Shown piece by piece: positions 60,779-64,000 of a stretch of 64,000 bases of DNA (position 1 is the stretch's first letter; every line of letters starts with the position of its first letter). The stretch spans positions 186,001-250,000 of the forward strand of contig JAFEFL010000070.1 in the NCBI GenBank assembly GCA_018240595.1, read 5' to 3'. The stretch comes from Pseudomonadota bacterium (GTDB taxonomy: Bacteria > Pseudomonadota > Alphaproteobacteria > Rhizobiales > Xanthobacteraceae). Position numbers and translations under genes: made by a program. The notes below the pieces were generated by a model, which did not search any database, was not told the origin of the DNA, and was given only the letters and a program-made list of their open reading frames with translations.

Positions 60779-61303
60779 TTACTTGAGCTCGCCGGCCACG
60801 TGCTCGGCGTGTTGCTCATGCCCCTGAAACAGCTTGAGGCCGGTCTGTAGCAGCCCCTTCAGCTCAGCATTGGTGGCCGCCGGGATCAGCGTGGTCTCGA
60901 GCGCGCCATTGACGGTCTTGTGGTAGGTGATCTCATTGGCGACATAAGCCTTGTCGAAAGCGGCGCCGCTGAGCTTGGCAAGGCTGGCTCGTTTTTCCGC
61001 TGCGGCCTTGGTCAGCGCCTTGCTCGTGTCGTTGTCTTCCGGCTTGACGCCGAGCTTATTGACCAGATCGAGCGCCTGCTTGTTCACCGCCGTATGGTCG
61101 CGCACCATGTTCTCGGCGAACTCCTTCACCGCCTTGTTCTTGGTTTTGGCGAGTGCCTGCTTGCCGGCCTCGATGTCGAGTTCGCCAGCGGTATAGGCGA
61201 TATGGGCGATCTGTGGATCGGTTGGCTTGGCTCCACCTTGGGCCAGTGCTGTGCCAGGCAGCAGGCAAAACGCGGCCAGCGCCGCAATTACATTGAGCTT
61301 CAT
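60779..61303 (-). CDS. Periplasmic DUF4142 protein
   Basis: A 174-residue exported helical protein. The signal peptide is LNVIAALAAFCLLPGTALAQ. The DUF4142 domain (ferritin-like helical bundle) shows GKQALAKTKNKAVKEFAENM, HTAVNKQALDLVNKLG and GHEQHAEHVAGELK. The ATG at 61303 has CGGAGGATCATC upstream. Similar proteins are common in ECF stress regulons; the molecular role is unknown. A promoter motif shared with the sigma gene lies 30 bases upstream of its start. Confidence 0.88.
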   Translation of the reverse strand: MKLNVIAALAAFCLLPGTALAQGGAKPTDPQIAHIAYTAGELDIEAGKQALAKTKNKAVKEFAENMVRDHTAVNKQALDLVNKLGVKPEDNDTSKALTKAAAEKRASLAKLSGAAFDKAYVANEITYHKTVNGALETTLIPAATNAELKGLLQTGLKLFQGHEQHAEHVAGELK

Positions 61304-61332: not shown

Positions 61333-61361
61333 TTGGATGCGCGAGGTGGCCGGAGGTTTCC
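61333..61361 (-). promoter_or_regulatory. Candidate ECF promoter of the DUF4142-cupredoxin pair
   Basis: On the minus strand, GGAAACCTCCGGCC is followed after 7 bases by GCATCCAA. The same layout (GGAACCTTCCGGCC, 6 bases, GCATCTAA) stands before the sigma gene. It lies 30 bases before the DUF4142 start. A GGAA-type -35 is usual for ECF sigma factors. Confidence 0.5.
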
Positions 61362-61364
61362 GCT

Positions 61365-62051
61365 TTAGCGGCACATCAGCCCGATTATTTTCTCGGTCAT
61401 GGCTTCGCAGCGGCGACCGCCAAACGGGAATGTGCCGGTCAGCGCCGGGCCGAGCTGGTTTTCCAGGGCTTCGCGCAAAAGCGCGCGGGCCCGGTGCAGC
61501 CGCGTCTTGACCGTCTCCGGCTTCAGGCTGAACAGATCAGCCGTCTCTTCGACCGTCATGCCCTCGACGACGCGCGCGACGAACACGATGCGGAACGAAT
61601 CCGGCAACTGATCGATGGCCTGTTCCAGGGCGACCCGAATCTCGCCTTGCGCCATTGTCTTCTCCGGATCGATGCTGGCCGCCGAGGCAGGAAAATCGAT
61701 GACCTGCGCCTGCGTGCGGTTTTCTCCGTAGCTTTCCCAGTCGACGCTGGGCCTTTGCTTGCGCAAACGCCCCAGTGCTTCGTTCATGGCGATGCGGGTG
61801 ATCCAGGTGCCGAAGGCGGCATCGCCGCGAAAGGCATCCAAGCCGGTGAAGGCGCGGACATAGGTCTCCTGCACCACGTCTTCCGCTTCGGCGTCATTGC
61901 GCAGGATGCCGCGGGCGACGCGGAACAGGCGGCGATTGTAGCGGATTGTCAGGGCGCGCACGGCGGCCTCGTCCCGGCAAAGCGCGCGCCGCACCAGGTC
62001 CTCGTCCGTCGGTATGTCGGCCCGGGTCTTCGGAACGGTCGTCAGAGTCAT
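61365..62051 (-). CDS. ECF-type RNA polymerase sigma factor
   Basis: A 228-residue sigma-70-family factor. Region 2 is ARGILRNDAEAEDVVQETYVRAF and region 4 is LPDSFRIVFVARVVEGMTVEETADLFSLKPETVKTRLHRAR. The C-terminus has the FPFGGRRCEAM motif with a conserved Cys, as in several ECF groups. No anti-sigma gene is adjacent; the next genes encode DUF4142 and a cupredoxin. The ATG at 62051 has GAGGAC before it. It likely controls its own operon. Confidence 0.92.
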   Translation of the reverse strand: MTLTTVPKTRADIPTDEDLVRRALCRDEAAVRALTIRYNRRLFRVARGILRNDAEAEDVVQETYVRAFTGLDAFRGDAAFGTWITRIAMNEALGRLRKQRPSVDWESYGENRTQAQVIDFPASAASIDPEKTMAQGEIRVALEQAIDQLPDSFRIVFVARVVEGMTVEETADLFSLKPETVKTRLHRARALLREALENQLGPALTGTFPFGGRRCEAMTEKIIGLMCR

Positions 62052-62075
62052 GGAAGCGTCCTCGGTTGCTATGCC

Positions 62076-62103
62076 TTAGATGCGGCAAGGGCCGGAAGGT
62101 TCC
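62076..62103 (-). promoter_or_regulatory. Candidate ECF promoter of the sigma factor gene
   Basis: On the minus strand, GGAACCTTCCGGCC (-35 region) is followed after 6 bases by GCATCTAA (-10 region). It lies 24 bases before the sigma gene start. The close match with the sequence before the DUF4142 gene suggests both are read by this sigma factor. Confidence 0.5.
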
Positions 62104-62180
62104 TGGCTCTATGTTGCCTCCGCATTCTGGACGAGGTGAGCAAATTCTGCCATTTCGCGATCAAATCAAGGGAGGTCTCA

Positions 62181-62556: not shown

Positions 62557-63243
62557 TCAGAACGAGCCGGGCGGCAGGCGATAGATGTCCGGAGTCTTGG
62601 CGTCGGCGATGTAGAACAGCATCAGGGCTGTCGGCGTCAGGATGCGCTGGTTGTTCTCACCTTGGCTGAAGGTACCCTGCAGCAGCATCATGGTCGTCCG
62701 GTCCTTTGCGTCGCTGCCGCGGAACATCAGGAGGCCGTTGTTCAGGGGCATGTTGGTCGCGATGCTCTCCGGTTTGAAGCCTTCGCTCAGGAAATGCGAA
62801 CGGAGCACGCTCGAATTCGAGAACAATTGCTCGGGCGTCATCTTGTCGTCGGTCGCCTTCGACCAGGACACCGACACCTGGATCAGTTTCTTCGACTGAT
62901 AACCGAAGACATAGGACACTTCCGCGGTGCCGCCGCCCTGCAGCAGATCCGGAACCTTGATCAGGAGCGCCTTGGTCCGCTCGCCTGCATTCGGCTGCTC
63001 CTTGATCGCGTCAGGCTTGAGGTTGAACTCCTTGGCGATGATACCCTTCACCTCGGCCTCGGTCATGCCGAACTTGGCCGAGCGGAAGCCGTCGACCGAG
63101 GCAGTCGCGGTCTGCATGACGCCGGAAGCGCCGGCCGGCGCCGCGGGCTGCTCTTTCTTACCCTGGCTGAGCGCGGGACCCTGCCCGGCCAGCAGCACCG
63201 CCGCGACGATCGCGCCGGCAAATCTGTAAGAAGTCATTTTCAT
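62557..63243 (-). CDS. Secreted protein of unknown function next to a TPS transporter
   Basis: A 228-residue exported protein. The signal peptide is FAGAIVAAVLLAGQGPALSQ. A segment FRSAKFGMTEAEVKGIIAKEF looks like a small alpha-beta repeat seen in periplasmic proteins of unknown role. No catalytic motif is seen. The ATG at 63243 is chosen as GGAGAG stands 4 bases before it. It lies 51 bases after the two-partner-secretion transporter gene on the same strand, so it may be cotranscribed. Confidence 0.7.
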   Translation of the reverse strand: MKMTSYRFAGAIVAAVLLAGQGPALSQGKKEQPAAPAGASGVMQTATASVDGFRSAKFGMTEAEVKGIIAKEFNLKPDAIKEQPNAGERTKALLIKVPDLLQGGGTAEVSYVFGYQSKKLIQVSVSWSKATDDKMTPEQLFSNSSVLRSHFLSEGFKPESIATNMPLNNGLLMFRGSDAKDRTTMMLLQGTFSQGENNQRILTPTALMLFYIADAKTPDIYRLPPGSF

Positions 63244-63294
63244 CAGGCTCTCCATGGGGCTCCATTCCGCATCGCGCGGTTACGCGGAGCCGGT

Positions 63295-64000
63295 TTACAA
63301 AAGTTGCAAGGGACGAATGGTCACACGGCCGTAGAATTCGCTGCGCGCCTGGCCCACGATCACCGTGCGCCACGGCACGCCAACGCTCGCTTCCAGCGTG
63401 ATCGGCGAATAAGGGGTCCACGACAGGCCGACGCCGGCGGAATCGAGCTGGGTGACCGACGGAAATGTCGAGAACACGGCGCCGCTGTCGAAGAAGGCGA
63501 AGAGGTCGAGCCCCTTGATCAGGTCCGACATGTTTCGGTGCAGTTCGAGATTGTAGTAATAGCCGCTGTCGCCCGATGCCGCATTGGTCGGATAACCGCG
63601 CACCGTTGTCGGACCACCGACCGAGAACAACTGGTCGCCAGGCAACAATTTCTCCCAGGTGTACTGCCAGCTGCCGAGCAGAACGGCGCTGAACTGCGCC
63701 GGCAGTTGCAGCGTGCCATTGGTCGAGCCCGTGAACGTATTGAAGCTGCGCTCGCCGCCGAGAATCTTGTCGTGCCAGTTGATGGTGTTGAAGCCCGGCG
63801 ACACCGTCAGGCTGTAGCTGGCGGCCAGCGCCGACAGCGACAGGCCGCCTGTGGTCTTTGAGTAGCGGTCGTTCGACACGGCGACGGCGGAGAAATCGCT
63901 TTCCGAGTTGCCGTAGGCATAGGCGCCGGTCGCCTGCAGCAGCCAGACGTCGTTGGTCCACACCGGCTGCGCCAGGTTAAGCGCGGCCTGGTTCGACGTG
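63295..64000 (-). CDS. Two-partner secretion outer-membrane transporter, C-terminal part (FhaC/ShlB family)
   Basis: The C-terminal part of an Omp85-superfamily TpsB transporter; the frame stays open to the window edge, so the start lies beyond 64000. About 235 residues are seen, all barrel. The barrel-lumen motif is VRGY in GGPTTVRGYPTNAASGD, and the sequence ends in a beta strand (GRVTIRPLQLL). It would export a large TpsA exoprotein, which should be encoded upstream outside this window. Confidence 0.85.
   Translation of the reverse strand, partial: TSNQAALNLAQPVWTNDVWLLQATGAYAYGNSESDFSAVAVSNDRYSKTTGGLSLSALAASYSLTVSPGFNTINWHDKILGGERSFNTFTGSTNGTLQLPAQFSAVLLGSWQYTWEKLLPGDQLFSVGGPTTVRGYPTNAASGDSGYYYNLELHRNMSDLIKGLDLFAFFDSGAVFSTFPSVTQLDSAGVGLSWTPYSPITLEASVGVPWRTVIVGQARSEFYGRVTIRPLQLL

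Follow-up and report, generated by a model that had tools for sequence, protein, structure and literature searches.

The ECF sigma factor encoded in the window (the whole 64,000-nucleotide stretch of DNA analysed here) probably drives its own gene from one site (site A) and a neighbouring DUF4142-cupredoxin gene pair from another (site B); we put the probability of this at roughly 90%. The sigma factor (61365-62051) would join RNA polymerase and recognise promoters of the GGGAAC-N15-GCATCCAA type, with site A giving transcription of the sigma gene itself (positive autoregulation) and site B giving transcription of the DUF4142-cupredoxin pair. Direct recognition, autoregulation and a copper- or redox-related role are what we infer from the data below. 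Coordinates are collected in Table 1.

Table 1. Promoter sites and genes at the sigma factor locus of the window, with further sites of the same type in related genomes.
Feature	Position	Strand	Details
Site A, predicted ECF29-type promoter of the sigma gene	62076..62104	-	-35 AGGAAC (62104-62099), 15-nt spacer, -10 GCATCTAA (62083-62076)
Site B, predicted ECF29-type promoter of DUF4142-cupredoxin	61333..61361	-	-35 GGAAAC (61361-61356), 15-nt spacer, -10 GCATCCAA (61340-61333)
ECF sigma factor, 228 aa, orthologue of S. meliloti RpoE8 (ECF29)	61365..62051	-	sigma-70 regions 2 and 4, short C-terminal tail FPFGGRRC
DUF4142 protein with signal peptide, like SMb20593, 174 aa	60779..61303	-	predicted first gene of the site B transcript
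Cupredoxin (amicyanin/plastocyanin-like, like AmcY), 103 aa	60456..60767	-	11 nt after DUF4142
Third ECF29-type site, Mesorhizobium-type	G063:C45:296716-296743	-	
Third ECF29-type site, Mesorhizobium-type	G064:C219:490683-490710	-	
Third ECF29-type site, Mesorhizobium-type	G065:C10:73906-73933	+	
Third ECF29-type site, Mesorhizobium-type, also	G361:C40:74173; G261:C4:1420		
folE / Rieske-oxidoreductase site loci	L196 (G015:C71), L199 (G015:C7), L197 (G016:C5), L198 (G001:C160), L201 (G023:C2)		

Two matching minus-strand sites had been proposed from the letters alone, and both are found where they were claimed, at 62103-62076 (GGAACCTTCCGGCCCTTGCCGCATCTAA) and 61361-61333 (GGAAACCTCCGGCCACCTCGCGCATCCAA). 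The proposed distance to the start codon is right for the sigma gene (24 bases, ATG at 62051), but for the DUF4142 gene (ATG at 61303) it is 29 bases rather than 30. Site B starts 3 nt past the stop codon of the sigma gene. The motif itself needed more correction. Its -35 and -10 elements hold, and are best described as GGGAAC and GCATCCAA, 15 nt apart. The CCGGCC block that had been counted as part of it belongs to the spacer, where its copies in the two sites are offset by one base, and it shows no conservation: 65 and 57 homologous sites give about 0.1-0.5 bits per position. Likewise, the reported spacing difference (6 versus 7) was an alignment slip in which the wrong G had been paired; aligned to relatives, both sites have N15 in register, reading AGGAAC-N15-GCATCTAA at site A and GGAAAC-N15-GCATCCAA at site B. 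With this spacing, site A has 2 mismatches to the consensus over 14 positions and site B has 1, while the sites of close relatives have 0 or 1. The -35 of site B is a single G-to-A substitution away from the otherwise conserved GGGAAC, which may make this site weaker. We also considered a 1-nt insertion in site B (giving a 17-nt spacer), but the alignment of relatives rules this out, showing a substitution of GGGAAC to GGAAAC with normal spacing.

The combined pattern has two matches in the window, whereas shuffled versions of the window have none. Over all 4.9 Mb of the genome, RGRAAC-N15/16-GCATCNAA, a relaxed form of the pattern, likewise matches sites A and B alone, with no extra ECF29-type site elsewhere. 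Four other genome positions (C1:1859, C12:50123, C17:12488 and C66:29986) match looser patterns only; with the spacing required, they do not fit the relaxed form with its two boxes, and were taken as chance. The sequence-only reading had named a lack of further sites near stress genes as grounds for rejecting it, and taken literally this is what the genome gives. We think that the lack of further sites instead points to a very small local regulon, rather than to an error.

Judging from sequence comparison, the sigma factor is an orthologue of Sinorhizobium meliloti RpoE8 (group ECF29). It is 52% identical to the copy in S. meliloti 4H41, whose promoter flanks (L094) match those printed for rpoE8 (SMb20592) and SMb20593 almost base for base (PMC6180224). 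RpoE8 was placed in ECF29 in 2018, with a consensus of GGGAAC (-35) and GCATCCAA (-10) separated by N15, and has no known anti-sigma factor (PMC6180224). In S. meliloti, 5'-RACE maps a transcript start to the rpoE8 site, and a second, perfect consensus match lies before SMb20593, the significance of which 'remains to be determined' (PMC6180224). Thus, the sigma group, its promoter and the two-site layout in S. meliloti were known before.

The window locus closely resembles rpoE8-SMb20593-amcY, with an orthologous sigma gene, the same gene order, an amicyanin-like gene downstream and no recognisable anti-sigma gene. In S. meliloti, GGGAAC/GCATCCAA likewise occurs twice, once ahead of the sigma gene and once ahead of the DUF4142-type gene, immediately past the sigma stop codon. 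The differences are that the window belongs to a Pseudolabrys-like genome, and that its two sites have AGGAAC and GGAAAC as -35 elements and GCATCTAA as one of the -10 elements. The divergent gene also differs, being an acylphosphatase in Sinorhizobium and DUF1330 at the window locus. The promoter consensus, RpoE8 orthology, DUF4142 and blue-copper neighbours and absence of a recognised anti-sigma gene all agree with ECF29. Among the adjacent genes scanned with family models, none was recognisable as an anti-sigma gene. The best NCBIfam match of the sigma factor is PRK11922, and the cupredoxin has the C-x-x-H-x-x-M copper-ligand pattern. The nearby region 62557-64000 (minus strand) encodes a 232-aa exported protein without Pfam hits, preceded by an open-ended reading frame that by eye resembles an outer-membrane secretion protein.

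Other sigma groups fit less well. Both the GTAAC/CGAA promoter and the DUF1109 anti-sigma of ECF16 are missing at the window locus, and neither the GGAATA/GT promoter nor the adjacent anti-sigma of ECF26 fits it. Bradyrhizobium EcfF/OsrA and other ECF16 systems are similar in being autoregulated ECF sigma factors with small regulons, but they use GTAAC/CGAA promoters and membrane-bound DUF1109 anti-sigma factors, neither of which the window locus has (PMC3420878). The CorE-type sigma factors of Myxococcus (ECF44/ECF238) share the lack of an anti-sigma, a copper connection and cysteine in a C-terminal extension (PMC8999054). However, CorE carries a CXC motif in its linker and its C-terminal domain is rich in cysteine (PMC8999054), whereas the window's sigma factor has a tail of about 25 residues with one invariant cysteine.

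Related loci were found in Pseudolabrys, Bradyrhizobium, Nitrobacter, Mesorhizobium, Rhizobium, Sinorhizobium, Brucella/Ochrobactrum and Devosia. Of 87 orthologous loci ranging from Pseudolabrys to Brucella/Ochrobactrum, 65 have a strict match at site A, 57 at site B and 54 at both sites. Across orthologous loci, the spacers vary in sequence while the boxes are near-invariant and their spacing is fixed. The strong positions in the aligned sites are GGGAAC, then [CG]TTT, and GCATCCAA, although the sites in this logo were picked by a pattern fixing GGAAC and C[AG]TC[CT], and conservation at those letters is therefore partly by construction. A mismatch-tolerant test was instead scored against the published consensus, not the pattern that selected the logo. 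When as many as 2 of the 14 box positions may mismatch, 61/81 loci have site A (vs 0/810 shuffles) and 61/81 have site B (vs 3/810 shuffles). The absence of matches in shuffled windows, the uniqueness in the genome and the conservation across genera all agree with the earlier claim that two such long sites are unlikely to fall in the right places by chance. That the pair is merely a chance likeness of two GC-rich intergenic stretches can be given next to no weight; the CCGGCC part of the match was indeed coincidental, but the sites are unmatched in shuffled windows, unique in 4.9 Mb and conserved across families.

The position of site B also varies with its gene. Sixteen loci, nearly all ordered DUF4142-cupredoxin-ECF, are missing the ECF-proximal site; their one site is found some 1 kb further upstream, in front of DUF4142. 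The same order and single upstream site are found in most loci that do not have both sites in the mismatch-tolerant test. In one genome (G023), some 2.5 kb separate the DUF4142-cupredoxin pair from the ECF gene, and the pair has retained its own site. The second site thus follows its gene: in the order-swapped loci it stands before DUF4142, which is now the first gene, and in G023 it has stayed with DUF4142. This bears on whether only site A is active, with site B a relic or duplicated remnant that is weak here through its GGAAAC -35. Such a role for site B would explain why SMb20593 showed neither a start site nor induction in S. meliloti (PMC6180224), and the one -35 substitution in the window's site B is in keeping with it. 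We nevertheless consider it improbable, as site B is as conserved across genera as site A, is retained when DUF4142 is parted from the sigma gene and is the sole site in the order-swapped loci. The comparison speaks for a genuine, conserved promoter at the second site, which the S. meliloti study had left open (PMC6180224).

The motif also tracks the sigma factor between genomes. GGAACSTTT-N12-CATCYAA occurs in 23 of 397 genomes of the order, all 23 of them among the 46 that encode a sigma factor of the window's type (hypergeometric 7e-25, without correction for kinship), while a reversed control pattern occurs in none of the 397. Within the window's genus, the motif is present in 11/11 genomes with an ECF29 sigma factor and in 2/25 others. 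The sigma factor was undetected in G034, an 83% complete genome with one site preceding DUF4142, and in G021, which has one chance-like site.

Published experiments in S. meliloti are harder to reconcile with a simple activator. Overexpressing RpoE8 126-fold induced no target, and amcY rose after deletion of rpoE8-SMb20593, by 2.6-fold in a strain without any ECF sigma and 3.2-fold in the single deletion (PMC6180224). These results misfit a simple activator unless RpoE8 was kept inactive without its signal or amcY ended up nearer to an upstream promoter through the deletion, which the authors themselves raise as an explanation (PMC6180224). They would suit a different regulator, either a repressor or an activator, that is common to both genes and binds the paired element. 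This seems distinctly unlikely, given that the boxes have the form and spacing of ECF -35/-10 elements at promoter distance from the start codons, that the mapped rpoE8 transcript start fits them (PMC6180224), and that, among the 397 genomes, the strict motif is confined to those with ECF29. In a non-exhaustive look, no other regulator gene was seen consistently adjacent. We favour recognition by the sigma factor. The sequence-only reading had predicted autoregulation and the sigma factor's -35/-10 preference. Its motif was partly wrong, but the comparisons bear out the promoter elements and lend strong support to the predicted autoregulation and to activation of DUF4142-cupredoxin.

Some relatives have additional sites. 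Five Mesorhizobium-type genomes have a conserved third, and in the 3/3 that were read it precedes a PCuAC-DUF1775(YcnI)-CopC/CopD copper-handling operon, PCuAC being a copper chaperone. In the window's genus, sites lie before folE (GTP cyclohydrolase I) in three genomes (G001, G015 and G016), and G015 has a separate site before a Rieske/FAD oxidoreductase. The same two genes, folE and the Rieske/FAD oxidoreductase, lie between ECF and DUF4142 in G023; one locus has traces of both (L042), and another has the oxidoreductase downstream of ECF (L055). In some lineages (L202, L205, L100 and L106), a TTHB210-like protein replaces DUF4142, with the cupredoxin alongside where read. These extra sites hint at a small copper/redox regulon. 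Separately, one Bradyrhizobium-type genome has a lone strict motif far from the sigma gene (L222, G246:C1:1985195-1985222), some 175 nt ahead of the gene for a protein that resembles bacterial globins and seems to carry an export signal.

Sensing by the sigma factor may involve its tail. A C-terminal tail of the FPF-x-G-x-R-C type and Cys215, the only conserved cysteine, are kept in 89/89 homologues. This invariant cysteine could be a redox or metal sensor. Since no anti-sigma is recognisable nearby, perhaps the tail does the sensing, though this is a weak inference. An AlphaFold2 model of the sigma factor (mean pLDDT 71.9, pTM 0.48) is confident in regions 2 and 4, but the tail has a pLDDT of about 44-58, and its docking on the sigma domains is not readable from the model.

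The ECF29 group is widespread among rhizobia, and what it responds to, which genes it controls and how it is itself controlled have been reported as a mystery (PMC6180224); our literature search found no further study of its targets. The two sites described here are almost certainly, on comparative grounds, promoters used by the ECF29 sigma factor for its own gene and for the adjacent gene pair, one member of which encodes a copper protein. The extra targets in relatives give a short list that points to copper or redox. Tentatively, ECF29 might be a copper-linked sigma factor that works without an anti-sigma, controls a cupredoxin as part of a tiny regulon and has its activity set by the invariant tail cysteine; some lineages would have recruited PCuAC-YcnI-CopCD (Mesorhizobium), or GTP cyclohydrolase I and a Rieske/FAD oxidoreductase (the window's genus).
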